64,000 bases of DNA from Gracilimonas sp. (GTDB lineage: Bacteria > Bacteroidota > Rhodothermia > Balneolales > Balneolaceae). The position numbers were made by a program, and so were the translations under genes. The DNA lies in NCBI GenBank assembly GCA_022450045.1, contig JAKURD010000010.1, positions 41,699-105,698 of the forward strand, given 5' to 3'. Below, one piece after another: positions 25,220 to 46,775 of this stretch (position 1 is its first letter; each line of letters begins with the position of its first letter). A model generated the notes under the pieces. It was not told the DNA's origin. It saw nothing but the letters and a program-made list of their open reading frames with translations, and searched no databases.

Positions 25220-25302
25220 TACTGCGATAAGAATACTATCCAAAAATTGACTCTAAATAGAATATTTAACTCTCAATAAAAATTAAACCAACGGTGACAA
25301 TT

Positions 25303-27516: not shown

Positions 27517-27538
27517 TCCCAAATTATTTTAAGATAAA

Positions 27539-28657
27539 ATGAACATCAAAACGATCAATACAATGAAAAGGAATCGAATATTTATGGCTATTAGCAAGCT
27601 GTTAGCAGTCGTACTGCTTTCTTTTTCTGCCTACGCGTGCAGCTCACCAGAAAAAAACTCTCAGGACCCTGAAAATCCGGTCTCGGTGACCGCAGAGACA
27701 GCAAAATTTAGTCAAATTTCAGCTTTAAACCATTTTTCGGGAACTGTTAAAAGCGAACATACGGTGGAACTCAGTACCAAGGTGATGGGAAGGATTACGC
27801 AACTCAATGTGGAGGCTGGGGATTTTGCCCGGAAAGGAGACATGCTGGTTCGGATTAAAGACGATAACCTGCAGGCACAGAAAAATCAGGTGGAGGCCAA
27901 TCTGTCACAAGCCCGTTCAGTCCTGCAGAATACAGAAACAAACTACAACCGCCTGAAGGCTCTGCATGAAAAAGGGAGCGCCACCCAAAAGGAATTTGAT
28001 GATATAAGCACGCAGTATGAGGCGGCTAAGGCAAACGTAACCGTCCTCAACGGAAAACTACTGGAGATTGAAGACATGCTGGCCTATACGGTGCTGGAAG
28101 CTCCCTTCGACGGCTATGTGGTCGCCAAAAGAGTTTCACAGGGCGACATGGCAGCCCCCGGGCAACCGCTTGTTTCTTTCGAGCAGGCAAACGGAATGAA
28201 GGTGGAAGTAACGGTTCCAGAAACGGAAATTACCTTGTTTAGTCTTAATGACAAGGTTTCGGTGGATGTTAAGGCAGCCGGCCGCCAGCGTCTTACGGGA
28301 GTGGTTTCGAGTGTACATCCTTCAGGCAACCGAGTTAGCCGACAATTTATGGTGGAGGTCAGCTTACCGGATATGGGCAGAAGTCACGGCCTTAAATCCG
28401 GAATGTTTGCTGAAGTCGGACTCTCCTCCACCTCAGACTCCGCATTAACAGTGCCGAAAACTGCGGTTATAGAACGTGGGCAGCTTACCGGCCTGTATGC
28501 GCTTACCGACGATTCAGAGGTACTACTTCGCTGGGTTCGCCTTGGAGATACAATCGGAAATCAGGTTGAGATATTGTCTGGTCTGAAACAGGGTGAAAAA
28601 TATGTATCGTCTTTTGAAGCCCCGCTTCGCGAAGGACAAAAAGTAAACGTACAGTAA
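27539..28657 (+). CDS. RND efflux periplasmic adaptor (HlyD/AcrA family), lipoprotein
   Basis: The 372-aa protein has a lipobox (SAYACSS, Cys about 32), a lipoyl/barrel-sandwich hybrid (HFSGTVKSEHTVELSTKVMG; VEAGDFARKGDMLVRI), an alpha-hairpin (about residues 100-170), a beta-barrel (QGDMAAPGQPLVSFEQ; VTVPETEITLF) and a membrane-proximal domain (VPKTAVIERGQLTGLYAL). It joins the inner-membrane pump to TolC. Two ATGs are available near the start; the upstream one (27539) gives an N-region of suitable length. It lies 23 bp ahead of the pump gene. Confidence 0.94.
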   Translation: MNIKTINTMKRNRIFMAISKLLAVVLLSFSAYACSSPEKNSQDPENPVSVTAETAKFSQISALNHFSGTVKSEHTVELSTKVMGRITQLNVEAGDFARKGDMLVRIKDDNLQAQKNQVEANLSQARSVLQNTETNYNRLKALHEKGSATQKEFDDISTQYEAAKANVTVLNGKLLEIEDMLAYTVLEAPFDGYVVAKRVSQGDMAAPGQPLVSFEQANGMKVEVTVPETEITLFSLNDKVSVDVKAAGRQRLTGVVSSVHPSGNRVSRQFMVEVSLPDMGRSHGLKSGMFAEVGLSSTSDSALTVPKTAVIERGQLTGLYALTDDSEVLLRWVRLGDTIGNQVEILSGLKQGEKYVSSFEAPLREGQKVNVQ

Positions 28658-28680
28658 AAGCAGAAAACGAAAGATATATT

Positions 28681-31600
28681 ATGAAAACCGGAATAGCAGG
28701 AAAAATTGCAAATGCCTTCATCGACTCTAAACTGACACCGTTGCTGATGGTGTTATTTTTGGGACTGGGTTTCTATGGCACGTATTTAACACCCCGCGAA
28801 GAAGAACCCCAAATTGATGTGCCGATGGCTGATATCTTCGTTGGTTACCCAGGTGCTTCACCAGATGAGGTCGAAAAAAGAATCTCCATACCACTCGAAA
28901 AAGTACTCTCCAACATTGAAGGAGTGGAATATGTCTATTCTACCTCCATGCCCGATCAGGCGATGGTTTCGGCGCGCTTCTATGTGGGCGAAGATGTGGA
29001 ACGAAGCCTGGTACGCCTGTATAATGAGCTGATGAAAAATATAGACCGCCTGCCGGAGGGAGCCACCATGCCGATGGTCAAGTCGCGCTCCATCGACGAT
29101 GTTCCCATCATGACGCTGACGCTCTGGAGCAAATCATACAGCGATTATGAGATCCGCCGTGTGGCCGACGAGCTGGCGCTGGAGGTAAAAAAGATTGAGA
29201 ATGTTGCCCAAACCAACATCCACGGCGGACGAACGCGCCAGGTTGGGGTATTCCTCGATAAAAATAAGATGGCCTCTTATGGTATTGACCCGATGAAGGT
29301 TGCAGGACAGATACAGGCGGCCAATCAGGAGCTTTCCTCCGGATCGTTCAGTAAAAATGACAGGCAGTACTTGGTAGAAACCGGCAGTTTCTTTCGCAAT
29401 ACCGAAGAGGTTCGAAACCTTATTATTGATGTGCAGGGTGGAGATCCGATTTATCTGAAAAGTATTGCAGAAGTTACGGACGGGCCGGAAGAACCCGCAG
29501 AATATGTTGCTTACGGGGTGGGAAATGCCAAAGCGGAACTATCCGGAATGAACGCAGGTGAATCCTATCCTGCGGTAACGCTTTCGATAGCCAAACGGCC
29601 GGGATCAGACGCTATGAACATTGCTGAAAACGTTCAGAAAAAAGTGGATAAACTGAATGGCACCCTTATTCCTGCAGGTATAACTGTGACGACCACACGT
29701 AATTACGGTGAAACCGCAGCTTCTAAGGTACTTTCACTACTGGAACACTTGTTCGGTGCAATACTTGCGGTGACCGTGGTCGTGGCGTTGGCAATGGGAT
29801 GGCGGGGCGGTCTGGTAGTCTTTTTATCGGTACCGGTAACCTTTGCCTTAACCCTCTTCCTTTACTATATATTTGGCTATACGCTGAACCGCATCACACT
29901 TTTTGCCTTAATTTTTGTAACAGGTATTGTGGTAGATGACTCCATTATTATAGCCGAAAACATGTATAGGCACTTTAAGATGCGCAAATTGCCATTTAAG
30001 CAGGCAGCAATAACGGCGATCAACGAGGTGGGGAACCCGACTATCCTGGCTACCTTTACGGTTATTTCGGCCGTGTTGCCGATGGCGTTTGTATCGGGGT
30101 TGATGGGACCGTATATGAGTCCCATGCCCATTGGCGCGTCGCTGGCTATGATCTTTTCACTCATCGTAGCACTGATTATCACCCCCTGGCTGGCATATAT
30201 GCTGCTGCCACACGTGAAGCCGGAAAAAGACGAGAGTGGTGCTGACAAGGAGTACCGGCTTGAAGATACCCGCATCTACAAATGGTACTCGCAGGTTATG
30301 AAGCCACTGCTGGAAAGTGTAACCAAACGATGGGTGTTTATCGGCGGGGTAACCGCGTTGTTGCTCGCTTCTACACTGCTGTTCGTATTCCGCATGGTGG
30401 AAGTGAAGATGCTGCCTTTTGATAATAAGAATGAAGTGCAGCTGATCATCGATATGCCGGAAGGCACCACCCTGGAGCGTACCAACGCCGTGGCTCGCGA
30501 AGTGGGTCTTAGCCTGAAAGAAATTCCGGAAATTCTTGATTATCAGATTTACGCAGGAACCAATGCTCCTATTAATTTCAACGGCCTGGTGCGGCACTAC
30601 GATCTGCGAAAAGGAGCCAATATCGCCGATGTACAGGTGAACCTGGTGGATAAAGGAGAGCGTGATGACCAGAGCCATGCCATTGCCAAGCGCATCCGCC
30701 CTATCGTGCAGGAAGTAGGAAAAAAATTCAACGCAAACATCAAAGTGGTGGAAGTGCCGCCGGGTCCGCCCGTGTTATCTACGCTGGTTACCGAAATATA
30801 TGGCCCGGATGAAGATCAGCGTCAGCGGGTGGGAAGCAAAGTGAAACAAATCTTCGAAGAAATGGAGGGTGTTGTTGATGTGGACTGGATGATAGAAGCA
30901 CCCCAGACGAAATATAAGATGGATGTGAATACCGAAAAAGCAACGCTTTCCGGCATATCATCCCGCCAGGTGGTACAGGCGGTCAGGATGGCGCTGAGTG
31001 GTAACCCTGTTTCACGACTGTACAGCGAAAAGGAGATCAATGATGTTCCCGTCGTTTTAAAACTACCTGAAAAAGAACGTTCAGGCATAGAACAGTTAAG
31101 CCAGCTTTATATGCAGTCGGCTTCCGGCACTATGATTCCGGTAACAGACCTGGTAACGGTTTCCGAAGAAACCCTGGAGCCAAGCATCTATCGAAAAAAC
31201 CAGCGCCGCGTGTTGTATGTAACAGCCGAGGTGGCCGGGGCCATCGAGAGCCCGGTTTATGCCATCCTGGATACTGGCGAAAAGATCGATGCCATTGATA
31301 TGCCCGCCGATTACAGTTTGGACCAGATTTTTGCCGGCCAGCCCTTCATGCAGGAAGATTACACGCTGAAATGGGACGGGGAATGGCAAATTACTTACGA
31401 GGTATTTCGTGATTTGGGAATTGCCTTTGCGGTCGTATTGGTGATCATTTATATGCTCATTATCGGCTGGTTCCAGGATTTTAAGGTTCCCATTATTATG
31501 ATGATTGCCATTCCGCTTTCACTGGTCGGTATTCTAATCGGGCACTGGCTGCTGGGGGCATTCTTCACGGCTACATCGATGATCGGAATGATTGCCCTGG

Positions 31601-31911
31601 CAGGGATCATGGTCCGTAACTCCGTATTGTTAATTGACTTTATAGAAATACGGCTTAATGACGGTGAACCACTGAAGCAGGCGGTCATAGAGGCCGGAGC
31701 CGTACGCAGCATGCCCATTCTATTGACGGCTGGTACAGTAGTTATCGGTGCGTTTGTAATACTGTTCGATCCCATTTTCCAGGGATTGGCGATTTCCCTG
31801 ATGGGCGGAGCAATAGCGTCAACCGCTCTTACGCTCCTGATGGTCCCGCTTATTTATTACATGGTGGAAAAGCCCGGTGAGCTAAAAGATAATAACAACA
31901 CGGAAGCATAG
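28681..31911 (+). CDS. RND efflux pump, HAE1-like inner-membrane permease
   Basis: The 1076-aa protein has the full RND form: TM1, a large periplasmic loop, TM2-6, TM7, a second loop and TM8-12. TM4 contains the proton-relay pair Asp419-Asp420 in GIVVDDSIIIAEN. The TM10-11 region reads IALAGIMVRNSVLLID. The Met/Glu set that defines CusA-type Cu/Ag pumps is not visible, so it is closer to the HAE1 group and its substrate is open. Neighbour genes (DUF302, Met-rich protein, DUF2892, thioredoxin-fold protein, rhodanese) recur with this pump type in sulfur-metabolising bacteria as I recall, which hints at thiol, sulfide or metal-thiolate export. That part is inference. Confidence 0.95.
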   Translation: MKTGIAGKIANAFIDSKLTPLLMVLFLGLGFYGTYLTPREEEPQIDVPMADIFVGYPGASPDEVEKRISIPLEKVLSNIEGVEYVYSTSMPDQAMVSARFYVGEDVERSLVRLYNELMKNIDRLPEGATMPMVKSRSIDDVPIMTLTLWSKSYSDYEIRRVADELALEVKKIENVAQTNIHGGRTRQVGVFLDKNKMASYGIDPMKVAGQIQAANQELSSGSFSKNDRQYLVETGSFFRNTEEVRNLIIDVQGGDPIYLKSIAEVTDGPEEPAEYVAYGVGNAKAELSGMNAGESYPAVTLSIAKRPGSDAMNIAENVQKKVDKLNGTLIPAGITVTTTRNYGETAASKVLSLLEHLFGAILAVTVVVALAMGWRGGLVVFLSVPVTFALTLFLYYIFGYTLNRITLFALIFVTGIVVDDSIIIAENMYRHFKMRKLPFKQAAITAINEVGNPTILATFTVISAVLPMAFVSGLMGPYMSPMPIGASLAMIFSLIVALIITPWLAYMLLPHVKPEKDESGADKEYRLEDTRIYKWYSQVMKPLLESVTKRWVFIGGVTALLLASTLLFVFRMVEVKMLPFDNKNEVQLIIDMPEGTTLERTNAVAREVGLSLKEIPEILDYQIYAGTNAPINFNGLVRHYDLRKGANIADVQVNLVDKGERDDQSHAIAKRIRPIVQEVGKKFNANIKVVEVPPGPPVLSTLVTEIYGPDEDQRQRVGSKVKQIFEEMEGVVDVDWMIEAPQTKYKMDVNTEKATLSGISSRQVVQAVRMALSGNPVSRLYSEKEINDVPVVLKLPEKERSGIEQLSQLYMQSASGTMIPVTDLVTVSEETLEPSIYRKNQRRVLYVTAEVAGAIESPVYAILDTGEKIDAIDMPADYSLDQIFAGQPFMQEDYTLKWDGEWQITYEVFRDLGIAFAVVLVIIYMLIIGWFQDFKVPIIMMIAIPLSLVGILIGHWLLGAFFTATSMIGMIALAGIMVRNSVLLIDFIEIRLNDGEPLKQAVIEAGAVRSMPILLTAGTVVIGAFVILFDPIFQGLAISLMGGAIASTALTLLMVPLIYYMVEKPGELKDNNNTEA

Positions 31912-33436: not shown

Positions 33437-34135
33437 TCAAATCAGCCGTATCACAAAATAGCTGCCGTCATCCTTGCTGTTAAATTTTTGCCATATAATG
33501 CCTCGGCCCTTTTCAATGATCTCAATAACATGGTACCCAAATCCTTTCATTTTAATGCCCAGCACGTACACACTTATATCTACTTCTGAGTTGATTTGAT
33601 ACTGTCCTACCTGTAGCGTATCGTTTGATACCAGCCTTCTATCTTTGATTGTTATTTTGCTTTTTCCTCCTAAAAAACCCACCAAGCCTTTATCAATATT
33701 CAAGGCAAATTCAATAGGTTCCATCTCCCAGCCGGGTTCAGGAGCAGTCGGGTAAAAAGCTTTCGTATCCAGCAGATTAACCTTGATTTCACTGCCTTTG
33801 CCATAGTCTGTAAAAGGGATGACATTCAACAGCACTTTCTGCTCTTCCGGCCGACAGGTATAGATGGTTTTTGTGCTGTCCTGAAGTTCGCCTTCGTCAT
33901 TATATGAAAACAATTCTACCGGAAGGCGGTAGAGATTAGATTGTTCCTCGATGGAACCAACAATAAGTTTTTCATAGGATTGTAGTTCATCTTTATCATT
34001 GTAGTTACATTTTTTATACTGATTACCGTCGATTTCAAACAACAGCATCTCCCTGGATTGTTGAGCTCGCAGGTCCACACCAAGAATCAGAATGATTAGA
34101 AAAAAAACACAGGAAAAATAAGTTGATAAACGCAT
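33437..34135 (-). CDS. Secreted protein of unknown function (DUF3108-like outline)
   Basis: The 232-aa protein has a signal peptide (MRLSTYFSCVFFLIILILGV) and an all-beta mature part rich in paired strands (YRLPVELFSYNDEGELQDST; GEIKVNLLDTKAFYPTAPE-like). The outline recalls DUF3108-type periplasmic proteins, without certainty. I start at the ATG at 34135; the frame opens at a TTG 15 bases before. It is downstream of the channel gene by 33 bp, so both may be cotranscribed. Confidence 0.65.
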   Translation of the reverse strand: MRLSTYFSCVFFLIILILGVDLRAQQSREMLLFEIDGNQYKKCNYNDKDELQSYEKLIVGSIEEQSNLYRLPVELFSYNDEGELQDSTKTIYTCRPEEQKVLLNVIPFTDYGKGSEIKVNLLDTKAFYPTAPEPGWEMEPIEFALNIDKGLVGFLGGKSKITIKDRRLVSNDTLQVGQYQINSEVDISVYVLGIKMKGFGYHVIEIIEKGRGIIWQKFNSKDDGSYFVIRLI

Positions 34136-34168
34136 AGAGAGCTGAATCAAATATTATTGTTACTTTTG

Positions 34169-35173
34169 TTATGTTGAATAAATGTCATTCCATCTCCATC
34201 CGCTGCTTTGGAGCAGCCCCGCCAACAATGATCTTCTTTCTGAAACCGATGCGGCATAATCTTCTGCAGCATGCGTGTCGGGTAGCGTTACCTGCTGTTC
34301 TTTCAGGCGTTGAAAATCAGGGGTATGATTTATTTCATGCCTGATGGGAGTAAAAAAATTGTGCCCGATGGAGTCCAAATAACTGTCGATAGCCTTTCTG
34401 AGTGCACGGAGCTCATGGGGGGCAGAAGCCGGGGTTTCGCCAATGTGGGAAATGATGGACAACGCCTCATCAAGGTTGGTGATATTGACGGAAAGAGACT
34501 CTTTTCTGGAAGTACTGTAAAAATAGTGTACCGCGGGATGGGCGAAGTGATTCTGATTATGCTTGTTGATCATCTCACGAAGTGTGGGAGCGACGTTGAC
34601 CAATCCCGGAAAGCTTTCTCCATCATGACTGTTGGCAACAATTTCTTCGGGGGATTCTCCCATATTTGCTATAAACAGGCTGAGATTTCTCTTGTGGATC
34701 ACTGCGCTGGTAAGACTCATCAGGTAGGTCATGGCGGTAGTTATGAAAATAAAACCGGCAAACGAAAAGGCAGCCATAATAATTTGCCACCCTTCGGTGC
34801 CCGGTATATAATCACCCACTCCCAGGGTGGACAGGGTATATCCGCTTACATACAGTTTGGTGAGAGCGCTCGCTGTAGATCCGGAACCGGCCTCTACTAC
34901 CGAGCCGGGATCGCTCATAAGTAACAAGAAAAAGCCAGCCCACAAAAGCCCGATCCACAGGAGGATTAAAGTCAGAATATGCGTCAACCCTGAATACCGG
35001 AATAATTTTCTGTGTTTTGTTCTTTCGTTCACCCATAGAAAGACAGCGGCAAGGGCCGAGGAGGTATTCCGGGCAACGACTCCGGCACCGTTAAAAGATA
35101 CCGTGGTATAGAAAAAATCGCAGGCTGTAATGATGACAATCGCGATCCCCGGAATAAGATAAAATTCATGCAT
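34169..35173 (-). CDS. Two-pore-domain-style potassium channel protein
   Basis: The 334-aa protein has about four membrane helices in the first 165 residues. The pore loop contains the K+ selectivity filter TLGVGDYIPGTEG (about residues 116-128), between helices LLWIGLLWAGFFLLLM and FAGFIFITTAMTYLM. A long cytoplasmic part (about 170-334) has no RCK nucleotide motif I can see. It should move potassium across the inner membrane. It heads a minus-strand pair with the secreted protein gene. Confidence 0.85.
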   Translation of the reverse strand: MHEFYLIPGIAIVIITACDFFYTTVSFNGAGVVARNTSSALAAVFLWVNERTKHRKLFRYSGLTHILTLILLWIGLLWAGFFLLLMSDPGSVVEAGSGSTASALTKLYVSGYTLSTLGVGDYIPGTEGWQIIMAAFSFAGFIFITTAMTYLMSLTSAVIHKRNLSLFIANMGESPEEIVANSHDGESFPGLVNVAPTLREMINKHNQNHFAHPAVHYFYSTSRKESLSVNITNLDEALSIISHIGETPASAPHELRALRKAIDSYLDSIGHNFFTPIRHEINHTPDFQRLKEQQVTLPDTHAAEDYAASVSERRSLLAGLLQSSGWRWNDIYST

Positions 35174-37330: not shown

Positions 37331-38698
37331 TCAACCCCCCCCGAGAAACCACTGTACGCCGATTCCTGCAACTATTGTCAGGATGAAGGTGCTTATCCAC
37401 ACAAAGGATGTTCCCGGAGCATAAAGTTTGGTTTGCTCCTCTTCGGCCTCCTGAAAAAACATGGGTACCACAATACGCATATAAACCGCCAGGGAAATAG
37501 CGCTGTTCAGAATGGCAATTACGGCCAGCCAAGTATATCCACTTTCAATAGCTGAACCGAAGAGCAGAAATTTGCCGACAAATCCTGCCAAAGGTGGCAT
37601 GCCCACCAGGGAGAGCAGGAAAATGGTCATGCCTACGGCATGCCAGGGACGCCGCCTTCCCACCCCTTTAAAATCATCCAGCCGGGTACCTTCGGCCAGA
37701 GTAATGGCAAAGGCACCGGTGTTCATCAACGCATACGCTACACCGAATACCACGAGAGAATCAATAGCCAGCCCGCTCTGTCCCATGCCTATTACTCCCA
37801 ACAGAAAGTAACCCGATTGTGCAATGGTCGAATAAGCAAGAAGCCGGATCACGTTATCCTGCCACAAAGCAACCACGTTGCCAAAGGTCATGGAAAGCAC
37901 AGCCAATACAGCCAAAATCAGTGGCCAGTCGACTACCGAAACAGGTATTTCTCTGACAACCTGGGCCAGTACAAAGAGCGCACCTATTTTAGGAACTACC
38001 GAGAGGTAAGCGGCAACAGAAACCGGAGCGCCTTCGAAGGTATCGGGAATCCAGAAGTGAAAGGGAAAAAGGGAGGCCGTATAGCCAATACCTGCCAGAA
38101 GGGTGATAAACCCAAACATCACAATAACCGGGGATAAGTCAGGATTTATCAGCGCTGAAATCAGTGTGGTTCCGGTAAGGCCTACCCAGTACGTTAAGCC
38201 GAAGAGCATTATGGCTCCTGCGACCGATCCGTAAATAAAATATTTCATCGCCCCTTCGCTGGAGGGGTCGTTCCTGGGATGGGCGGCCATGGCCATGCCT
38301 GCAAGGGTTCCAATTAAAATACCCAGTACAAGGAACATGACATCTCCGCTGCCCGCTAAAATCATGGCTCCCAACGCAGCAAATACCATCAAACTATAAA
38401 TCGTGCCTTCCCGGACTTGGTCCTTCAGTTCCGCTCTGGCAAGCAACGCAAAAAGAATAGTGGCCGGAGATAAAATCGCTGCTGCCCAAAGGCTCAGAGC
38501 ATCTACACGAAAAGTGGTTGAAAAAGCCGTTGTTTCCGTTCCCAGCATATCTACGGCGACGCCTGTTGCCGCGGACATTCCTATGACCAGGCACCAAAGC
38601 CCCGCCAGCGGTCGCCGGGCCATCTCCAGGCACAATACGGTTACCGCTGTAACCAAAACAATAAGCTGTGGTAAAATATTAAGTAAATCTGTAGCCAT
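37331..38698 (-). CDS. nuoN: Complex I-like membrane subunit NuoN, with lost channel residues
   Basis: The 455-aa protein has about 13-14 membrane helices and the antiporter-like core (FPFHFWIPDTFEGAP at 211-225; VPKIGAL, Lys237). Two hallmark residues are missing. The TM5 stretch 121-137 has no Glu where E. coli has GIELISLPLF (here GILIGTLAG). The TM7 Lys of FKLSLVPFH is Thr207 (YTASLFPFH). The NuoN proton path is therefore probably altered or closed while NuoL and NuoM look intact. It is the last gene of the operon, 5 bp after nuoM. The stop follows a run of G8 that encodes the final glycines. Confidence 0.88.
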   Translation of the reverse strand: MATDLLNILPQLIVLVTAVTVLCLEMARRPLAGLWCLVIGMSAATGVAVDMLGTETTAFSTTFRVDALSLWAAAILSPATILFALLARAELKDQVREGTIYSLMVFAALGAMILAGSGDVMFLVLGILIGTLAGMAMAAHPRNDPSSEGAMKYFIYGSVAGAIMLFGLTYWVGLTGTTLISALINPDLSPVIVMFGFITLLAGIGYTASLFPFHFWIPDTFEGAPVSVAAYLSVVPKIGALFVLAQVVREIPVSVVDWPLILAVLAVLSMTFGNVVALWQDNVIRLLAYSTIAQSGYFLLGVIGMGQSGLAIDSLVVFGVAYALMNTGAFAITLAEGTRLDDFKGVGRRRPWHAVGMTIFLLSLVGMPPLAGFVGKFLLFGSAIESGYTWLAVIAILNSAISLAVYMRIVVPMFFQEAEEEQTKLYAPGTSFVWISTFILTIVAGIGVQWFLGGG

Positions 38699-38703
38699 CG
38701 GGC

Positions 38704-40182
38704 TTATAGTCCAAAGAAGTTAGTGGTAGCGTGAATGAGCGAAAGCAGTGAGTTGGGATAAATACCGATAATCACGGTACCCGCTATAAGCGGAACAATA
38801 GCCCAGAGCTCTCTCCGGTTTAAATCAGACACTCCGCTGAATTCTTTAGGCAGTGTGCCAAGAAATACTTTTTGTATAGCTCGCAGGTATAGAGCCGTTG
38901 TGAGCGGCAAGCCGATAATAATGATGCCAACGGCTACCGGATACACATCGAAGCCCCCCAGAAAGATTTGAAACTCCGCGGGAAAATGGGCCAGACCCGG
39001 TAACCCCAGCGAGGCAAAAGCTGCCACTATAAAGAGCCAGCCAAGAATGGGATAGACTTTTAGCAGCCCGCTCATTTCGCTCATCTCACGGGTGCCAGTA
39101 CGATCCTGAAGGGCACCTACCAATAAGAAAAGTACTCCGGTAACTACGCCGTGACTTATCATCTGCAGCACCGCTCCGTCCAGGGCTATCATGCCGCTGG
39201 TGGTGGTGGTAACAGCCGCAATGGCTATACCAAACACCAAATAGCCCATGTGGTTTACACTGGTATAGGCTACCATCCGTTTGATGTCGGTCTGTGCCAG
39301 CCCCACGAAAGCCCCATATAGTGCCGTGAAAACGGCAATAACGATGACATAAGGCGAAAATTCACGGAATGCATCGGGCGTCATCTGCAGGGGAAAGCGT
39401 ATAAAACCGTAGGTTCCCAGCTTCAGTAACACACCCGCCAGGATCGCGCTGCCCGCTGCCGGCGCTTCGGTATGAGCCAAGGGAAGCCAGGTATGAAAGG
39501 GAAATAGCGGCGTTTTAATAGCAAAAGCTATAAATAGACCCCAGAACGTGAGCGTAGCTGCCAGTCCTGTAATCTGGGGATTTGCAATTAGCTCCCGCAT
39601 GTCAAACGTATTGGGATCAGAGAAAAGATACAGTGCCAAAAACGCCAGCAGCAGAAACAGGCTGCCTACCAGGGTATAGATAAAGAAGGTAAGAGCTGCT
39701 TTCTTACGGTGTTCGTGACCCCATTTGGCAATCACAAAGTACATCCCTACCAGAGTAATCTCAAAAAATACGTAGAACAGAAAGAGGTCGAGTGAAAGGA
39801 ACACTCCTAAACTGGCCGTCTCCAGCATTAGAACCAGTTGTATAAAAATATTGGCCTTCTCTTTAATTTTTGCCGAGAAAATGAGTGCCGTTAAAAAGAG
39901 TAAGGCAGTAAGCAGCACCAGTGGAAAACTAATGCCGTCAATTCCAAGCCTGTAAGCAATACCTATGGAAGGAATCCAGCTGAATTCCTCGATCAGTGAC
40001 AGACCGGGGCCAAAACCTCGAATCCAGATTAGAATAGCGGAGAGCAAGGTTAAAGCTGTTGTGGCTATACCAATTGCGTAGGCAGTTTCCGTTTTTTTAG
40101 GGCGCAGTACCATAACGACCAATGCCCCCACTACGGGTAAAAAGGTGGTTATAGTAAGTAAAGGTATTGATGAAAAATCCAT
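38704..40182 (-). CDS. nuoM: Complex I-like membrane subunit NuoM
   Basis: The 492-aa protein is a normal-length antiporter-like subunit with 14 helices. The TM5 Glu141 (FFEITLVGMYF) and TM7 Lys223 (FAIKTPLFPFHTWLPLAH) are present, and the later IKRMVAYTSVNHMGYL and PAEFQIFLGGF segments (with Glu in TM12) are conserved. In complex I this subunit moves one proton. It lies 3 bp after nuoL and 5 bp before nuoN, so the genes are strictly cotranscribed. Confidence 0.93.
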   Translation of the reverse strand: MDFSSIPLLTITTFLPVVGALVVMVLRPKKTETAYAIGIATTALTLLSAILIWIRGFGPGLSLIEEFSWIPSIGIAYRLGIDGISFPLVLLTALLFLTALIFSAKIKEKANIFIQLVLMLETASLGVFLSLDLFLFYVFFEITLVGMYFVIAKWGHEHRKKAALTFFIYTLVGSLFLLLAFLALYLFSDPNTFDMRELIANPQITGLAATLTFWGLFIAFAIKTPLFPFHTWLPLAHTEAPAAGSAILAGVLLKLGTYGFIRFPLQMTPDAFREFSPYVIVIAVFTALYGAFVGLAQTDIKRMVAYTSVNHMGYLVFGIAIAAVTTTTSGMIALDGAVLQMISHGVVTGVLFLLVGALQDRTGTREMSEMSGLLKVYPILGWLFIVAAFASLGLPGLAHFPAEFQIFLGGFDVYPVAVGIIIIGLPLTTALYLRAIQKVFLGTLPKEFSGVSDLNRRELWAIVPLIAGTVIIGIYPNSLLSLIHATTNFFGL

Positions 40183-40185
40183 AGT

Positions 40186-42075
40186 TTACAAATAGGTTAA
40201 TAATATTATGATAAAAGCGAAAACCATCCCGTAGACTGACCAAGCCAACTCACGGTGTACTAGCCCTGATTGCATCTTGCGACCATAGTGCCCCAAGCGT
40301 TGCACTGAATCTACAAGTCCGGCAATACCCTCTACGATACCCTTGTCATCAGTAAAGCTGGACATACGGGCAATATTCAAATTGAAGGCTCCGATGCTGT
40401 CTATAACATAAGCGGTAGCACGGTCTATACCTTCCGACAGCCAGCGGGCTATGGCTAAAAAAGCGGTGCCTATTACAAAAACAGCCTGCAGCAGACTGGT
40501 TTCAATTGCGTTAAACCCTTTTGCAAGTGCAAGCATGGGCTGTACTACAACCCGATTATATCCTCCGGCTACCGGGTAATTGTCTCTGAAAAACATCCAG
40601 ATGCGTTTCTTAAAAGCAGGGGCAGGAGCAAACCATCCAATCGGCAGTCCTGAGGCAGCCGCAACTAAACCGCTTATCATAGCCAGCGTCCCTTTTGGGA
40701 TACTAAAGCCTGCCTCCTCAACCAGTGGATCTAAAAACAAACCTCCCACAGCTGTGGCAGCAGCAAGTGTCAGCAGGCCGGTATGCATCCATGGAAGAGA
40801 GCGTTGGGGTGTTTCGTCCGGTCTGGCTTTGCCGTTCCATAAAATACCGAACGCACGGCCCATATATATAGCCGTAAAAAAGGCTCCGATTAAAGCCGCA
40901 GGAAAGTACCATGCGGCCGGATCAGCCTGCAGACCAGCTGCCAGGATAGCGTCTTTTGACCAAAATCCAATTAAAGGGGGAATACCAGCAAGGGCAAGCC
41001 CGGCCACGGCGAAGCCGGAAAATGTCACTATTAGTTTTTTACCTGCACCGCCAAGATCCTTATATCGTGTGGAACCTGTTTCATGTTGAAAAATACCGGC
41101 TCCCAGAAATAAGCTGCTTTTCATAAAGGCATGGGCAATCAGGTGGGCAATAGCTGCGGCCGGGTATCCGGCTCCTACAGCCAGTACCATAAAACCGAGC
41201 TGGCTCGATGTGGAAGCCGCGAGCATGCGTTTGATGTCTTCGGAAAAGACAGCGGTTGCCCCGGTGAGCAGAATCGTTACACCTCCTACAGTACCGACCC
41301 AAATTAGCGCATCGGGCGAAAATAAAGGGAAAGCTTTGAGCAGTAAAATGATACCTGCCGCCACCATAGTGGCTGAGTGCAGCAGGGCTGAAACGGGGGT
41401 GGGACCCGCCATTGCCGCCGACAGCCAGCTTTGGAAGGGGACCTGCGCCGATTTACCCATAACTGCAAGCAGCAGGGCCAGCGCACCTGCCATAGAAATG
41501 CCCTGCAGCGGTTCGGCTACAATCTGGCTGGACCCGCTGGTAAGGATAATAACAAACACCCCTACATAGAGTCCCAGGTCGGCCACGCGGTTCATAAGAA
41601 AAGCCTTGGTTGAAGCGTCACCGGCTTCTTTTTTCCAGTACCAGGTGCCGATCAGTAAATAGGAGGCAAAGCCCATGATTTCCCAGGCCATAACAAAAAG
41701 GATCCAGTCTCCGGCCAGCACCAGCAGCTGCATCGCCCCCAGAAACAGGGAGATGCCGGACCAAAACCGGAGTTTTCCTTTTTCTTCTGCCATATACCCG
41801 ATGGCGTAGATAAAAATGAAGGTGGTGATGACGGAAACGACCAGGGCCAGCACCGCGGAAAGTTCGGTAACCTCGAGGCGGAACGGAAAGTTGGGAAGTC
41901 CTGCAAAAGTTGCGGTAATGATTTTTCCTTCAATCATATACAGAAACAGAAAAAACGAACCTGCCAGCGATGCCAGGCTTCCCGTGAGCGCGGCATAGCC
42001 AATCTGCTTCCTTGTAGCTGTTATCCAGACAGTTGCTGCCAGAGGACCGAGTATGGTAAGTAAAAGTGCAATCAT
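40186..42075 (-). CDS. nuoL: Complex I-like membrane subunit NuoL
   Basis: The 629-aa protein has the antiporter-like core with Glu132 (MAWEIMGFASYLL), Lys208 (VMGKSAQVPFQSWL), the LHSATMVAAG helix, EDIKRMLAASTSSQLG, and GFWSKDAIL with the TM12 Lys. A C-terminal extension (about 500-629) fits the lateral helix HL and the last TM. This is a complete, apparently functional ion channel subunit at the distal end of the arm. In the operon it follows nuoK by 7 bp and overlaps nothing. Confidence 0.94.
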   Translation of the reverse strand: MIALLLTILGPLAATVWITATRKQIGYAALTGSLASLAGSFFLFLYMIEGKIITATFAGLPNFPFRLEVTELSAVLALVVSVITTFIFIYAIGYMAEEKGKLRFWSGISLFLGAMQLLVLAGDWILFVMAWEIMGFASYLLIGTWYWKKEAGDASTKAFLMNRVADLGLYVGVFVIILTSGSSQIVAEPLQGISMAGALALLLAVMGKSAQVPFQSWLSAAMAGPTPVSALLHSATMVAAGIILLLKAFPLFSPDALIWVGTVGGVTILLTGATAVFSEDIKRMLAASTSSQLGFMVLAVGAGYPAAAIAHLIAHAFMKSSLFLGAGIFQHETGSTRYKDLGGAGKKLIVTFSGFAVAGLALAGIPPLIGFWSKDAILAAGLQADPAAWYFPAALIGAFFTAIYMGRAFGILWNGKARPDETPQRSLPWMHTGLLTLAAATAVGGLFLDPLVEEAGFSIPKGTLAMISGLVAAASGLPIGWFAPAPAFKKRIWMFFRDNYPVAGGYNRVVVQPMLALAKGFNAIETSLLQAVFVIGTAFLAIARWLSEGIDRATAYVIDSIGAFNLNIARMSSFTDDKGIVEGIAGLVDSVQRLGHYGRKMQSGLVHRELAWSVYGMVFAFIIILLTYL

Positions 42076-42082
42076 AGACTCA

Positions 42083-42391
42083 TCACCCCTTTAATTCTGC
42101 TGATTCTTCCATCTCAACCGTACCTGAAGTACGAAACCGTTGGGTGGCAATAGCAAATCCAACAGCTCCTTCCAGGGCCATCACCGTCATGGCTACCAAT
42201 ACAAACATTTGGAGAGAAAAGGCCTCAGGGTGCAGGTATCGCCAAAAAGCCACAAGATTTATCATGGCAGCCCCCAGCATCAGTTCAATACCCATCATAA
42301 TCATTACCAAATTGGTCTGGCTTAAGGCACCGTATAATCCTATACCGAAAAGTACAGCGGCAATAATTAAGGCTGTAATCAATAGTTCCAT
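42083..42391 (-). CDS. nuoK: Complex I-like membrane subunit NuoK
   Basis: The 102-aa protein has three helices with the two conserved Glu: Glu36 in MMGIELMLG and Glu74 in MALEGAVGFA (canonical position 72). These residues carry protons across the central membrane water wire in complex I. Length is normal. It lies 5 bp after nuoJ. Confidence 0.93.
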   Translation of the reverse strand: MELLITALIIAAVLFGIGLYGALSQTNLVMIMMGIELMLGAAMINLVAFWRYLHPEAFSLQMFVLVAMTVMALEGAVGFAIATQRFRTSGTVEMEESAELKG

Positions 42392-42396
42392 AGTGC

Positions 42397-42915
42397 TTAC
42401 TTCTCCATGCTTTTTTTAATTGATAATGCGACTGCAATAGAGGCAATCATTCCGGTAAGAATGGTCACCCCAGCCGTTTCGAAGATCATCATTGACCGTT
42501 TCAAAATTTCCATTCCCAACAGGCGATTTTGTTCGTGGGGTCCGGGGAACTGAGTAGCTATTGTACCCCAGTCGGTGGCAAGAGCGGCACCGATTATCAA
42601 TACGGTTACAATTACACCCGCTGCTATGGAGATATTTTTCTGATGGCTCATATCCATATTGCCCAGGCCACCCGGATCCATCATATACATCATCATAAAG
42701 ATAGCCATGATGCTCATCTCCGTTCCCATCATCATAATTTGCAGTACCCCCAAAAACTCAGCTTCCATGACAAGAAACAAAGCACCGATGGCTACCATGG
42801 AAGCCAGCAGCGAGAGCGCAGACCGAACCATGGAACTGGTCATAAAGACGCGCCATCCGAACCAGATAGCCGCCAGGCCAAAAATAATAAGGAATATGAG
42901 TTGTATAGATATCAT
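42397..42915 (-). CDS. nuoJ: Complex I-like membrane subunit NuoJ
   Basis: The 172-aa protein has five membrane helices (LIFLIIFGLAAIWFG; SALSLLASMVAIGALFLVME; VLQIMMMGTEMSIMAIFMMM). The TM3 region that contains the pi-bulge Tyr in canonical NuoJ reads GVLQIMMMGTEMS, which is Met-rich and not the usual LVYVGAVMVLF. Its start overlaps nuoH by 4 bases. Confidence 0.88.
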   Translation of the reverse strand: MISIQLIFLIIFGLAAIWFGWRVFMTSSMVRSALSLLASMVAIGALFLVMEAEFLGVLQIMMMGTEMSIMAIFMMMYMMDPGGLGNMDMSHQKNISIAAGVIVTVLIIGAALATDWGTIATQFPGPHEQNRLLGMEILKRSMMIFETAGVTILTGMIASIAVALSIKKSMEK

Positions 42916-43814
42916 AACAGCAAGACTACTCCTACCTGAAATATGTTATAAAGGGCTAAAGGCACACCGTACTTCCAGTTGTATTCCAGCAGGTGGTCGT
43001 GCCGGATGCGGGGCATAAAATGACCGACAGCAAAAAAAGAGGCCGCTACCAGTAAGGTTTTCAGAAAAGTCCAGACAAAACCGGGCAGCCAGGGGCCCAT
43101 CCATCCACCCAGGTACAGCACAACCACAGCTACCGACAAAGTTAACACCAAGGCAAGCCGGCCCAGACGAAACAACAGCTTGCGGGCCCCGGTAAGATCT
43201 GCCCAGACCCCTCCTGCCAGCTCACCTTCTGCTACCGGAAGGTCGAAAGGGGGAAGAAAAGCGATGGCCAACGCCGAAATATAAAACAAAATGAAACCCA
43301 CCGGCTGATATAGAATATTCCACAAAGACTGTTGGGATTCGACGATGTCTGTCAGAAACATTGATTCAGCCCGCATTACCGTGGCCGTCAATGCCATTAC
43401 CACCGGCATGGAGTAGGCGATAAGCTGTGCCAGCGCACGCCAGCCGCCAACCATGGCGTACACCCCGTTAACGGCCCATCCGGCCATCAGCAGAGACACC
43501 ATTATATAGACCAGCGCCGCATTGATAAAGAGGGCGCCGGTTCCCAGATCGATTATCACGCTTCCCCGGCCGAACGGCAGGATGGAAATCGTTAGCAAAA
43601 TCACTCCGATAAAGAGGACCGGCGCCGTTTCAAAAAAGACCTTGTCGTGCTTCCGGGTTTTGATCTCCTCTTGGGCAAACAGTAGCAAAAATGACCGGGC
43701 CGGACCGCTCCAACTTACGTTTCCCGTCATCGAGCAGCGTTCCAGTACTGCTACAAAATATACTCCTCCCACAAAAAGGAGGGTAATCATAAAACCGCTT
43801 AAAAAAGGCGTCAT
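42912..43814 (-). CDS. nuoH: Complex I-like membrane subunit NuoH with degenerate quinone loop
   Basis: The 300-aa protein has 8 helices and the tail end of the canonical fold (LGGWMGPWLPGFVWTFLKT). The first cytoplasmic loop, normally ERR-GR-GPNRVGP with a quinone-site role, reads ERCSMTGNVSWSGPA (25-39). The second, [21 protein letters not shown] in relatives, is PFDLPVAEGELAGGVWADLT (189-208) and keeps Glu196 and Glu198 only. The quinone tunnel is therefore unlikely to work in the usual way. The proton-path carboxylates in the membrane are partly kept. The gene follows the His-rich BD fusion by 12 bp. Confidence 0.88.
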   Translation of the reverse strand: MTPFLSGFMITLLFVGGVYFVAVLERCSMTGNVSWSGPARSFLLLFAQEEIKTRKHDKVFFETAPVLFIGVILLTISILPFGRGSVIIDLGTGALFINAALVYIMVSLLMAGWAVNGVYAMVGGWRALAQLIAYSMPVVMALTATVMRAESMFLTDIVESQQSLWNILYQPVGFILFYISALAIAFLPPFDLPVAEGELAGGVWADLTGARKLLFRLGRLALVLTLSVAVVVLYLGGWMGPWLPGFVWTFLKTLLVAASFFAVGHFMPRIRHDHLLEYNWKYGVPLALYNIFQVGVVLLL

Positions 43815-43826
43815 AACAACTATCTG

Positions 43827-46412
43827 TTAAGGGTTAATTTCCCAGGGTGAAATATCCAGTGAGTTCACGGCTATCAGTGCATCGGCCAGCTCCTGCTGTT
43901 CGGTTATCGGCTTTACCAGCCCCGCCAGTGCCACGGAGGGGGTTGTCAGGTGCATATGAGCCAGTTTACCCTCATGAATATGAAATTTTAGTGTTACTAT
44001 ACCACGGGGGCTCTCAGTGTGTGCAATACCATTCCCCATTCCGACAGATGGTATGTTGATCTTTCGTGAAGATTCTTTGCCGGAATCGTTACCCGCTTTT
44101 TCTATAAATCGCAGGCTTTGTTCAATTTCATCCAGCCGTACCATCAGCCGGCTCCAGGCATTGTTTCCGGCAGCGGTTACGGGAGTCCACCCGGCTTGCT
44201 GATACACAGCTTCCTCTAACCGATGGTCTTTCTCAATTCCTGCAGCCCGGGCTACCGGCCCTGTGATATCGTCTGGCAGCTGGCCAGGCACAGCACCGGT
44301 AACTTTGTTTTTTTCATCTTTGCTTGCATGATCGTGATGAACATGTTCATGATGGTCATGGGTCTCATGCCCGGTGTGCTGATGCATTTCATGGCTATGA
44401 TGATCGTGCTCACCATGTTGATGACCTCCGTGGTCATGACCTTCATGGCTATGCCCATGTTTTTCGTGATGCTTATGATCTTCTCCGTGTCCCTGAGCTC
44501 CGTGATGATGTTCGTGGCCTTCATGCCCACCATGGTCATGAGGTTTCTGCTCGTCACTTTCTTCATGACAGTGACCTGAATGGGAATCCGCATTATGTTC
44601 GTGGTGATGGTTTTTATGAGTGCCGGCAGCTTCCTGGTTATGTTTCCCAGTTCCCCCGGGGTTGTGGACGGCGGCACTTAATTTCAATTTCAGATACGGC
44701 ATCTTTTTTATCCGGCGGATAAACCCAGAGAGCTGCCCCCTATTTCCGGTATCGTTTTGGAAAAGATGATAATGTTTTATAGCCTGGTCGCGCATCCAGC
44801 TGCTGCCAAGCGTTGAAGCGAAAACGGTCAGCCAGTTCAAATGGCTGGTTATTCGTTCTTTTTCCAACAGCACTGCCTCGGACAGGGTTAGCGCAGAATT
44901 ACCCGCTTTATCAGAAAAATTTAATAGTGCTTTTTGTGCCAATAACCGGTAGGTAACCGGCGCCATAGGGTTGATCGCTTCAAGATATTCCGGCAATGCG
45001 GCAGGGTCCTCAGGTATGGATGCAAGCAAGTTACGGCTTGGGAGCTCTTGGTCTGCTTCCGCTTCGGCAACCGTATCGCCGTCCATCTTCATAGAGAGAC
45101 GCAGCCCGCCGGGCAGGCCAGGATGAAAGGGACCAAACTGCACGTCACTCCACTCCATCGGCAGTCCATCCGAACTACGTGGGAGATCTTTGGTCATGGC
45201 TATCATCGACATAAAGCCCGAACCGTGATCGTGGCCTCCATGCCCGTGATCTCCATGTTGATGGGCTCCGTGGTCATGACCGCCGTGACTATGCCCATGT
45301 TCTTCGTGCTGAGAGTGATCATGTTCTCCATGTCTATGACCTTCATGGCCATGGCTGTGTTCACCGTGCTGATGCCCTGAGTGTTCATGATCTTCTTGCT
45401 CGTGTCCATGATCATGATGGTGGGCTCCGTGATCGTGGCCGCTATGGCCGTGCCCCTCGTGCCGGTGTTTTTGATGTGCACTATGTGAGCCGTGTTGATG
45501 GCCACTATGGGAATCTTTTTTTTCTCCGCTTTGCTGGCCATGGGAATGACTATGCCCTTCGCTGCCATGATTGTGTTCACCGTGTTGCTCATGACCTTCA
45601 TGTCCATGTTCTCCATGATCGTGACCGCTGTGGTCGTGCCCTTCATGCTGGTGTTTGGTATCTTGTGAGTGATCATGGCCGGGTTTGTCCGATGCTCCAT
45701 GGCAGCCTTTAGACTCTTCTGCTTCCCCTGAATGGCTGTGACCGTGATTTTTATGCTCTTCGTGACTGTGGTCATGGCCTTCGTGAGCAGAATGTGTGTG
45801 AGCCGAATGATCATGCCCTTCCTCTGCATTACCGTGTTGATGGGCAGAAGGATCGTGGCCTTCGTGGCTGTGACCGTGTCCACTATGCTGTGAGTGATCA
45901 TGATCTCCATGGCCGTGATGGTGATGATGGTGCATGTGGCCCTGCTGCTTACCGGCTTCTTCTATTTCGTTTACCAAGGCTTCCGGCTGATATGGTTCCG
46001 GCTCATCTATCCAAGCAAGATTGCTCAGGCACTCCCTGACAGCAGGCAATGCGGTTTGAAGAAAATCTTTTTCCAGAGCAACGTGTACATCAGGGTGAGG
46101 CAGTGGGTCAAGATGTTTCGGCCCGGCCAGCACCAGCATCCGCGGGCGCGGCATCTGGGCGTAAACAATAGCGGCCTGTTCTGCCATATCCGGGTTCATA
46201 TCACCAATAATCAGCAAAACATTAGCTTCTCTTGGATTGGCTGTCAGTCGTGCTTCGCCGTTCAGGGGGCCAGACTGATAGATACGCAATATATCGGGAC
46301 CCGGGACAGGAAACAGGCAAAGCTCCCGCGAAGCAGCCTTTGCCATCCATCTCCGAAAAAAATTCATTTTGCCTTTTCGCGCTCCGTATTTCATCGTCAT
46401 TTCCATAGTCAT
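43827..46412 (-). CDS. NuoB-NuoD fusion-like protein with two giant His-rich segments and no Fe-S ligands
   Basis: The 861-aa protein has five parts. Residues 20-135 match NuoB: LTANPREANVLLIIGDMNPD aligns with [20 protein letters not shown], but all the N2-cluster cysteines of the canonical motifs are lost (GTC is GDM, GACA is AGPKH). Residues 155-400 are almost only His, Gly, Asp, Glu and Ser in HxHxxH patterns. Residues 420-580 match the first half of NuoD (FGPFHPGLPGGLRLSMKMDG, with the quinone-site THG changed to LPG; KERITSHLNWLT). Residues 590-700 are a second His-rich segment. Residues 705-861 match the rest of NuoD (ARAAGIEKDHRLEEA; SRLMVRLDEIEQSLRFIEKA; NSLDISPWEIN). It starts directly after the nuoA stop. 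A cytoplasmic metal-binding docking module on the membrane arm is the best reading; redox activity looks impossible. Confidence 0.88.
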   Translation of the reverse strand: MTMEMTMKYGARKGKMNFFRRWMAKAASRELCLFPVPGPDILRIYQSGPLNGEARLTANPREANVLLIIGDMNPDMAEQAAIVYAQMPRPRMLVLAGPKHLDPLPHPDVHVALEKDFLQTALPAVRECLSNLAWIDEPEPYQPEALVNEIEEAGKQQGHMHHHHHHGHGDHDHSQHSGHGHSHEGHDPSAHQHGNAEEGHDHSAHTHSAHEGHDHSHEEHKNHGHSHSGEAEESKGCHGASDKPGHDHSQDTKHQHEGHDHSGHDHGEHGHEGHEQHGEHNHGSEGHSHSHGQQSGEKKDSHSGHQHGSHSAHQKHRHEGHGHSGHDHGAHHHDHGHEQEDHEHSGHQHGEHSHGHEGHRHGEHDHSQHEEHGHSHGGHDHGAHQHGDHGHGGHDHGSGFMSMIAMTKDLPRSSDGLPMEWSDVQFGPFHPGLPGGLRLSMKMDGDTVAEAEADQELPSRNLLASIPEDPAALPEYLEAINPMAPVTYRLLAQKALLNFSDKAGNSALTLSEAVLLEKERITSHLNWLTVFASTLGSSWMRDQAIKHYHLFQNDTGNRGQLSGFIRRIKKMPYLKLKLSAAVHNPGGTGKHNQEAAGTHKNHHHEHNADSHSGHCHEESDEQKPHDHGGHEGHEHHHGAQGHGEDHKHHEKHGHSHEGHDHGGHQHGEHDHHSHEMHQHTGHETHDHHEHVHHDHASKDEKNKVTGAVPGQLPDDITGPVARAAGIEKDHRLEEAVYQQAGWTPVTAAGNNAWSRLMVRLDEIEQSLRFIEKAGNDSGKESSRKINIPSVGMGNGIAHTESPRGIVTLKFHIHEGKLAHMHLTTPSVALAGLVKPITEQQELADALIAVNSLDISPWEINP

Positions 46413-46775
46413 TTACTGGCGTTTGAGTCCGAGTTGGGTCCAGGTGTAAACTAAGCCCAGAAACAAGATCATCAAAAATACTCCCATATCCAGCAGGGCC
46501 AGAAGCCCTACTTCTTGATAGACTACCGCCCAGGGATACATGTAGGCCATCTCCATATCGAAAGCCAGGAAGAGGAGGGCATATCCGTAATAACGCACGT
46601 GGTAACGAAGCCAGGCGGGTTTGGGCACCAGGTTACCGCTTTCTGCGGGAATATCCTTGCCCGGCTCCTCAAGTGTTTTGCCCAGCGATTGTTTGATGAG
46701 GTATAACATCCAAACAAATCCTGCTGTGGCAATCAGCATTCCAAATAATAATAGATATTGCAGTATGGGCGTCAT
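46413..46775 (-). CDS. nuoA: Complex I-like membrane subunit NuoA
   Basis: The 120-aa protein has three helices. The conserved FDxE in TM2 is present (Asp73 and Glu75 in LLFLAFDMEMAYMYPWAV). The TM1-2 loop, ECG with a reactive Cys in ordinary NuoA/ND3, reads ESGNLVPKP (45-53), so the Cys is gone. That loop senses the quinone cavity in redox complex I. It is the first gene of the operon, 290 bp downstream of a perfect TTTAAGG direct repeat. Confidence 0.9.
   Translation of the reverse strand: MTPILQYLLLFGMLIATAGFVWMLYLIKQSLGKTLEEPGKDIPAESGNLVPKPAWLRYHVRYYGYALLFLAFDMEMAYMYPWAVVYQEVGLLALLDMGVFLMILFLGLVYTWTQLGLKRQ

Follow-up and report, generated by a model that had tools for sequence, protein, structure and literature searches.

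The 64,000-nucleotide window analyzed here comes from contig JAKURD010000010.1 of a Gracilimonas sp. genome and contains an operon of eight genes whose products resemble subunits of complex I (Nuo). The operon lies on the minus strand and runs from position 46775 down to 37331 in the order A-BD-H-J-K-L-M-N, with intergenic gaps of -4 to 12 bases. It begins with a gene for a NuoA-like protein of 120 amino acids (aa) (46413..46775; PF00507, E 6.3e-25), in which an invariant methionine has been gained within 'FDMEMAYM', and continues with BD, a NuoB-NuoD fusion of 861 aa (43827..46412) which, by profiles and alignment, is without redox ligands and carries inserts rich in metal ligands. These are followed by genes for NuoH-like (300 aa, 42912..43814; PF00146, E 2.2e-59), NuoJ-like (172 aa, 42397..42915) and NuoK-like (102 aa, 42083..42391; PF00420, E 1.6e-18) proteins, and for three antiporter subunits resembling NuoL (629 aa, 40186..42075; PF00361), NuoM (492 aa, 38704..40182; above the cut-off of TIGR01972) and NuoN (455 aa, 37331..38698). 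All Pfam assignments exceed their cut-offs, namely Oxidored_q4 for A, NADHdh for H, Oxidored_q3 for J, Oxidored_q2 for K, and Proton_antipo_M for L, M, and N. The first-pass annotation had described membrane subunits A, H, J, K, L, M, and N in standard order, and the genes are where it placed them. It had also noted that NuoC, E, F, G, and I are missing before nuoA and after nuoN; inspection by eye likewise found none of them among the open reading frames (ORFs) beside the operon. Judged by its sequence, the operon belongs to the complex I superfamily as a new variant, and its function is probably new as well.

The same operon is present in two genomes of the same genus and in named Fodinibius genomes, so it is not an assembly accident. 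With the NuoB-like part as query, the locus was found in 2 of 9 other genomes of the genus and in none of 47 further relatives beyond it. A draw of 395 genomes across the phylum yielded four carriers (the window genome, two congeners, and one family member), and two weak matches were rejected, G202 because it sits in an apparently ordinary complex I operon and G065 because it sits in a hydrogenase-like operon. When the NuoD-like part was used in a pattern scan across 84,980 species genomes, 99 relatives emerged; the 80 best were analyzed as loci. A NuoJ search gave 13 plasmids, 12 of them close (at least 69% identity) and one distant, in Halomonas, while none of 20 pattern matches in viral contigs was a relative. 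The carriers comprise Fodinibius, Rubrobacter and other Actinomycetota, Chloroflexota, Hymenobacter, and Alpha- and Gammaproteobacteria. The search for the gene order in other genomes, which the first-pass annotation had proposed, was positive: 60 of the 93 loci carry all eight genes on a single strand, arranged A-BD-H-J-K-L-M-N, no locus is ordered differently, and the other 33 are incomplete, being cut by the end of the locus or having split or missing genes (e.g., L107 and L121). Two loci, L035 and L038, duplicate the records of L045 and L057; they were excluded from the tree and the linker classes and are still counted in the tallies of gene order, residues, gained methionines, neighbor clusters, helix methionines, and N2 columns. 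In a FastTree phylogeny of six joined subunits (71 rows), the Pseudomonadota stand apart from the rest. Near-identical operons are nevertheless shared between Aliihoeflea and Brevundimonas, which belong to different families, a pattern to be expected of mobile genes. The scattered distribution and the carriage on plasmids point to an accessory machine.

The soluble BD protein carries the first part of the argument. In the window protein, the NuoD-like part is significant (PF00346, E 3.3e-14), and the NuoB-like stretch is weak (Oxidored_q6, E 0.031, below cut-off, residues 54-97). The comparison with NuoB and NuoD suggested in the first-pass annotation was made with a profile built from 44 of the 76 fused BD sequences; searched against the sequences of the Protein Data Bank (PDB), it reached NuoD/NdhH at E ~1e-28, also MbhL, and the NuoB-type protein MbhJ at E 3.4e-8. 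An AlphaFold2 model of the BD of a relative, L045, has a mean predicted local distance difference test score (pLDDT) of 84.2 and a predicted template modeling score (pTM) of 0.82. In fold, the model is closest to the 49-kDa/NdhH subunits of complex I, with template modeling (TM) scores of up to 0.75 by target length among the matches listed; no NuoB chain is among the fold matches listed for this model.

The residues required for electron transfer are missing from this fusion. The columns of the N2 cluster ligands (C63, C64, C129, and C158) contain no cysteine in 76 of 76 NuoB-like domains, including that of the window, in an alignment that is gapped there, and 45 of 74 B domains are entirely without cysteine. 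Where the ordinary NuoD of the host reads 'GPQHPATHG', the window BD reads 'GPFHPGLPG', so that the THG of the quinone motif is gone; in the seven family sequences compared, this position follows the pattern FGP[FL][FH]PGLP. The NuoD-like part of the window protein has a single cysteine, which leaves the two-CxxC ligand set of group 4 [NiFe] hydrogenases incomplete. The absence of the cluster cysteines and of THG had been read from the window alone in the first-pass annotation, and both observations hold. Redox silence is thus supported, electron transfer being excluded as far as sequence allows.

In place of redox ligands, BD carries candidate metal ligands. The window protein contains 128 histidines in two blocks covering ~420 residues: the first block (residues 136-413, 86 His, 45174..46007) lies between the NuoB-like and NuoD-like parts, and the second (residues 575-716, 42 His, 44265..44690) within the NuoD-like part. 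The histidine-rich sequence reported earlier is therefore real, and its extent is larger than the ~350 residues then estimated. Across the family, the ligand type varies. A pattern count placed the B-D linkers of 74 fused BD proteins, using author-chosen limits, into a class with an HMBD motif (61), a class with at least 15% His (9), and a class with at least 10% His plus Met (4), leaving none outside. The His-rich class consists of the window, six relatives of the Balneolota lineage including a UBA2664 bin, one member of the Chloroflexia, and one gammaproteobacterium. The BD profile described above also reaches the HMBD of a copper P-type ATPase (E 9.3e-8), and Pfam detects HMBD in 5 of 5 plasmid BD proteins tested; the Pfam scan of the window BD gave no HMBD match. 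The occurrence of differing ligand types at one linker position argues for a common need to bind metal. Metal binding by BD is consequently supported at the level of sequence, and with it the earlier proposal of a redox-silent, metal-binding complex; as most linkers of the family carry a motif of this kind, the support is stronger than the window by itself could give. In the L045 model, the insert has a pLDDT below 50 and is probably disordered.

A possible sign of contact between BD and the membrane arm comes from related operons. Compared in steps of 400 columns, genome G008 shares 88-98% identity with the window across BD and H (~46.6 to 42.8 kb) and 94-100% with G005 along the rest of the operon. 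BD and H seem to have been exchanged jointly through recombination, as would suit two proteins in working contact.

The membrane subunits were compared at positions given in E. coli numbering, chosen among the Nuo residues that we take to be functionally important. The equivalents of NuoL E144, R175, D178, K229, H254, K342, and K399 are present in 81 of 81 sequences. In NuoM, E144 and K234 are matched in 76 of 76 and K265 and E407 in 75 of 76. The NuoK E36 equivalent, found in the window as well, is kept in 87 of 87 and that of E72 in 83, with Asp in 4, and the equivalents of NuoA D79 and E81 are kept in 80 of 80. The proton-path charges of L, M, K, and A are thereby retained. Other subunits are altered. 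Among the residues of its quinone chamber, NuoH retains D213 and R291 in 89 of 90 sequences and has lost R37, D63, E157, and E241 in all 90, the window protein lacking the Arg37 region together with the equivalents of the other three. NuoN keeps K158, K247, and K395 in 75 of 75 sequences and K217 in 66 of 75 (Thr in the window), and the Glu133 equivalent of transmembrane helix 5 is lost in 75 of 75, the window included. These losses bear on the idea that bound copper, cycling between Cu(I) and Cu(II), replaces the iron-sulfur clusters, with electron flow still coupled to pumping. Such a scheme would make use of the metal-binding inserts in BD and of the multicopper oxidases found near some loci. 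It is nevertheless very unlikely, because the quinone-site THG and the four NuoH residues are lost, no electron donor or acceptor subunit is seen, and the modeled insert is of low confidence and probably disordered.

The membrane arm has also gained methionine. NuoJ Y59 is replaced by Met in 89 of 89 sequences, and helix 3 of NuoJ (28 columns, E. coli NuoJ 53-80) contains 9-11 Met in 88 of 89, the remaining one, L066, having 6 in a split gene. The same 28 columns hold 0-3 Met in 24 ordinary NuoJ sequences, namely that of E. coli and 23 from 21 family-carrying genomes (22 genomes were searched); one step of the NuoJ analysis took in 36 of the 89 sequences. In a model of the window NuoJ (pLDDT 74.6, pTM 0.49), the methionine-rich third transmembrane helix corresponds to residues 54-79. 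Three gained Met positions in NuoA are each occupied in 80 of 80 sequences. Overall, near-invariant gained Met occupies 26 of 308 conserved columns in A, H, J, and K versus 8 of 541 in L, M, and N (Fisher p 1.4e-6; p 0.011 without J), and both p-values are rough because the rows are related. The denser end of the arm is the one where BD should sit. The methionines of NuoJ helix 3 do not line up along a single face (p 0.72), and a stripe of that kind was rejected.

Two further genes accompany the operon downstream. On the same strand lies a gene for an ion-channel-like protein of 334 aa (34169..35173), whose homologue at L015:17544-18578 scores 21.7 bits with Ion_trans_2, just below the cut-off of 22.5. 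Such a gene accompanies the Balneolota loci: it follows the operon in the same orientation in 8 of the 93 loci, the window among them and two of the eight being one record. Beyond it, also on the minus strand, lies the gene for a 237-aa protein (33437..34150) that accompanies the closest loci (5 of 93, window included); it has no NCBIfam family, and its homologue has no Pfam family. Profiles of defense systems gave only weak matches to these two downstream proteins (E 0.003 and 0.0003) and none to BD. The region between nuoN and the channel gene contains an NmrA-like NAD(P)-binding gene in two ORFs (35634-36560, recognized by eye), opposite which L015 and L016 have no aligned sequence.

The main rival explanation is a metal-gated ion channel or pump. 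BD would sense cytoplasmic metal and gate a flow of H+ or Na+ (or K+), the metal itself not being carried, with the downstream Balneolota channel as a partner. The retained charges of NuoL and NuoM, the downstream gene, and the distribution of the NuoJ methionines over more than one helix face are all compatible with such a metal-gated channel or pump. However, a sensor leaves the methionine-rich helix of nearly every NuoJ, as well as the size of the metal inserts, unexplained. This explanation is accordingly considered unlikely.

Part of the family's neighborhoods point toward copper. Named metal genes occur in the flanks of 24 of 80 loci versus 1 of 20 control stretches, and a P-type ATPase alone in 15 of 80 versus 0 of 20, the controls being just 20 stretches ~50 kb from an ordinary nuoD and hence non-random. 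The commonest neighbor cluster, found in 26 of 93 loci, consists of heavy-metal P-type ATPases and HMA-domain kin, some of which may be HMA-domain copper chaperones. Genes for copper or heavy metals are listed in seven of nine inspected plasmid regions; they encode a P-type ATPase, a CsoR-type regulator, CopB, a multicopper oxidase, a cupredoxin, or CusA. Upstream in the sister locus L015 lie a gene resembling heavy-metal P-type ATPases and a cupredoxin-like gene identified by eye. In Halomonas, the distant plasmid member has a multicopper oxidase and CopB nearby and keeps its methionine-rich helix.

In the window itself, copB (9751-10563; PF05275, E 1.1e-77) and a multicopper oxidase gene (10560-12377; Cu-oxidase_3, Cu-oxidase_2, and Cu-oxidase) lie together on the minus strand (9751..12377), ~25 kb from the operon. 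The plus strand carries a two-component system (20017..22175), whose kinase is nearest the CztS/SilS/CopS heavy-metal sensors (TIGR01386, 253.2 bits, below the cut-off of 292.55), and tripartite RND efflux genes for a TolC-like protein, an adaptor, and a permease (26149..31911), the permease being nearest multidrug RND models, with the CusA/CzcA model fourth. A cytochrome c gene is also present.

Several smaller observations concern the same regions. Small Met-rich, secreted-looking proteins, recognized by eye, are encoded in the broader surroundings of three related loci (window 25294-25794, L016 319-807, and L035 568-906). Two 100-nucleotide direct repeats, 77% identical, lie upstream of the operon at 47151-47398. 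On Paracoccus and Sulfitobacter plasmids (L030 and L034), an extra NuoN-type antiporter-like gene and a sigma-70 factor gene are found divergently upstream of nuoA. The NuoJ-like protein of the Halomonas plasmid (L176 11929-12555) ends in HQHHHHH.

The host also possesses an ordinary complex I. Its genome (3.5 Mb, 71 contigs) carries the ordinary set in dispersed form. Contig C1, which is not that of the window, encodes A, B, C, D, E, F, G, and H and, at another place, I; C25 encodes J and K close to an Mrp-like cluster (by eye), and C67 encodes L, M, and N. Profiles identified B, D, I, and the antiporter subunits, and the others were read from translations. The A, H, J, K, L, M, and N of the operon are 20-43% identical to these counterparts. 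The operon looks like a second, separate, incomplete set and not like a broken copy of the ordinary complex. In the first-pass annotation, NuoC, E, F, G, and I encoded elsewhere and copurifying with this arm were named as evidence to the contrary, and a separate nuo set in the genome was to be sought. Both the five genes and the set exist; since the five accompany an A, B, D, H, J, K, L, M, and N of their own, their membership in a separate ordinary complex I is likelier. A second NuoD-type gene (at least 199 bits) besides BD was found in all 50 genomes examined, out of 80, which again suggests that the machine is accessory.

An accessory set of this kind could be a pump or antiporter of H+ or Na+ for adaptation to salt or pH, its metal inserts being protective or regulatory. 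Many carriers of the family are, presumably from their names, marine, vent, or saline organisms, and the same gene order has been described in print for marine actinomycetes and proposed there to encode such a pump. On the other hand, the loss of the redox sites leaves a pump with no energy source, copper genes neighbor part of the loci, the linkers are rich in metal ligands in 74 of 74 cases, and the host also has the Mrp-like cluster. A role of this kind is thus quite unlikely.

The proposal put forward here, with about an even chance of being right, is that the operon encodes a redox-silent, ion-gradient-driven, complex I-like transporter of Cu(I)/Ag(I), most likely an exporter in copper/silver resistance. 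Export, in company with other copper-resistance genes, would be the simplest reading of a redox-silent ion arm that is joined to a metal collector and a methionine-rich heel, and of the roles named in the first-pass annotation, proton-driven metal export fits best. In the proposed mechanism, a metal-collecting module would take the place of the electron-input module. BD would occupy the NuoB/NuoD position on the cytoplasmic face of the heel formed by H, A, J, and K, where its inserts (His-rich, HMBD, or Met-rich) may capture Cu(I)/Ag(I) and possibly other soft metals. The metal would then be passed into the methionine-rich heel (NuoJ helix 3 and the gained Met of A, H, and K) and across the membrane. 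Inflow of H+ (or Na+) through the retained half-channels of NuoL and NuoM would power the metal step, reversing the usual flow of energy. Assembly as one complex, the identity of the metal, its transport and direction, and the coupling are what we infer from these data. More tentatively, and somewhat short of an even chance, the operon may encode a secondary active transporter of heavy metals that forms a class of its own and uses the architecture of complex I, its NuoL/M/N arm supplying the ion-motive force and its coupling running in reverse without electron transfer.

A number of points weigh against copper or silver export. Two plasmid regions, L030 and L041, are without a listed copper gene. 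No match to the metal queries was found in 56 of 80 loci, many of whose flanks are short, and the queries themselves were taken from the family's own neighborhoods, L045 and L057 being records of two of the query sources. Among 20 neighbors in 10 loci, mostly gammaproteobacterial, there is no copper gene and one HupE/UreJ-type protein. The Halomonas BD (438 aa) has no His or HMBD insert. The consistent loss of the NuoN helix 5 glutamate means that coupling cannot work just as in complex I, and the distribution of the NuoJ methionines around the helix gives no support to a pore. The window inserts are His-only and would suit Zn, Ni, or Cu(II) no less than Cu(I), and earlier authors, in the available sections of their papers, link a like-ordered operon to salt and not to metals (PMC6676996, PMC3314556).

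Some of these points would also suit uptake instead of export, or a metal other than copper and silver, such as Zn, Ni, or Cd. The inserts are His-only in the lineage of the window, and the direction of transport is invisible in sequence. The neighbors, however, are of resistance type (P-type ATPase, CopB, multicopper oxidase, and CsoR-type regulator), which makes this variant distinctly unlikely. If metal is carried as proposed, the operon would encode a toxic-metal transporter of an architecture for which no description is known, partly plasmid-borne and annotated as pieces of NADH dehydrogenase.

Operons of this gene order have appeared in the literature. Penn and Jensen (2012; PMC3314556) described in Salinispora a second, partial NDH-1 operon, probably gained horizontally and additional to the full nuo operon, and read it as a pump of sodium or protons. 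In Streptomyces SM17 and SM18, the partial nuo operon has the order nuoA, hypothetical, nuoHJKLMN; a figure legend describes the hypothetical proteins as having no homologues in UniProt or PDB, and the operon is reported from a strain of copper-rich mine fluid with an interpretation in terms of osmotic stress (PMC6676996). The finding is repeated in PMC8622039. The first-pass annotation had known of no description of such a complex; the gene order itself was already in print, whereas B/D homology and a metal function are not mentioned in the available sections of these papers, whose authors favor a salt-adaptation pump. The actinomycete operon, likened to that of the window by gene order and not by sequence, probably belongs to the same family, which includes Rubrobacter, a member of the Actinomycetota. 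If so, the 'partial nuo operons' reported as marine-adaptation genes may need re-reading. An extra nuo cluster of piezophilic Colwellia is listed as nuoABCEFGHIJKLMN in the accessible part of the report and was set aside as ordinary (PMC7542103). Plasmid-borne Nuo sets have also been reported, in a paper whose main text does not contain the terms 'copper' or 'metal-binding' (PMC12361115). A link of such an operon to metal binding was absent from the titles and abstract openings returned by searches of open-licence PubMed Central (PMC) literature, a weak negative since subscription papers lie mostly outside it.

Several known systems share parts with the operon. The HMBD motif, found in the linker of 61 of 74 family BD proteins, is common to copper P-type ATPases and CusB, although no ATPase or adaptor domain was found in the family and the window BD has no HMBD match. 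Mrp antiporters share the antiporter-like subunits and are without A, H, B, and D; the window gene set is not MrpA-G, and its NuoL scores far below the MrpA-type cut-offs. The membrane-bound hydrogenase (MBH) and membrane-bound sulfane sulfur reductase (MBS) complexes keep their redox centers. MbhL contains 'FGPIHPGL', close to the 'FGPFFPGLPGG' of the family, and the L045 model matches 6u8y_L with a TM-score of 0.74 by target length, whereas the membrane set of the window includes A and N and follows the complex I type. The cyanobacterial NDH-1MS and the DAB CO2 system use a complex I-type arm to drive a reaction other than NADH oxidation, an idea in common with the operon, and zinc-dependent vectorial CO2 hydration like theirs had been among the roles suggested in the first-pass annotation. 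Its sole attraction is that there, too, a complex I membrane arm is combined with a metal site. It is scarcely credible here, as DabA (PF10070) has no match in the host genome and the window NuoL scores 165.8 bits with the NdhF3 model TIGR01960, whose cut-off is 588.7; CupA/CupB had no match among the eight operon products in the Pfam scan, with no profile search aimed at them.

Complex I itself remains the closest comparison. It shares with the operon the ordered A, H, J, K, L, M, and N subunits, the NuoD fold, the NuoB/NuoD homology, and the charges of L, M, K, and A. The operon differs in having no adjacent C, E, F, G, or I, no N2 ligands, and no THG, in the loss of NuoH residues and of the NuoN helix 5 glutamate, and in its metal-ligand inserts and methionine-rich NuoJ helix. 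Retaining these charges without redox sites and with NuoH, NuoN, and NuoJ altered, it would offer a natural experiment on the coupling of complex I, which would reveal the parts needed for coupling over a long range.

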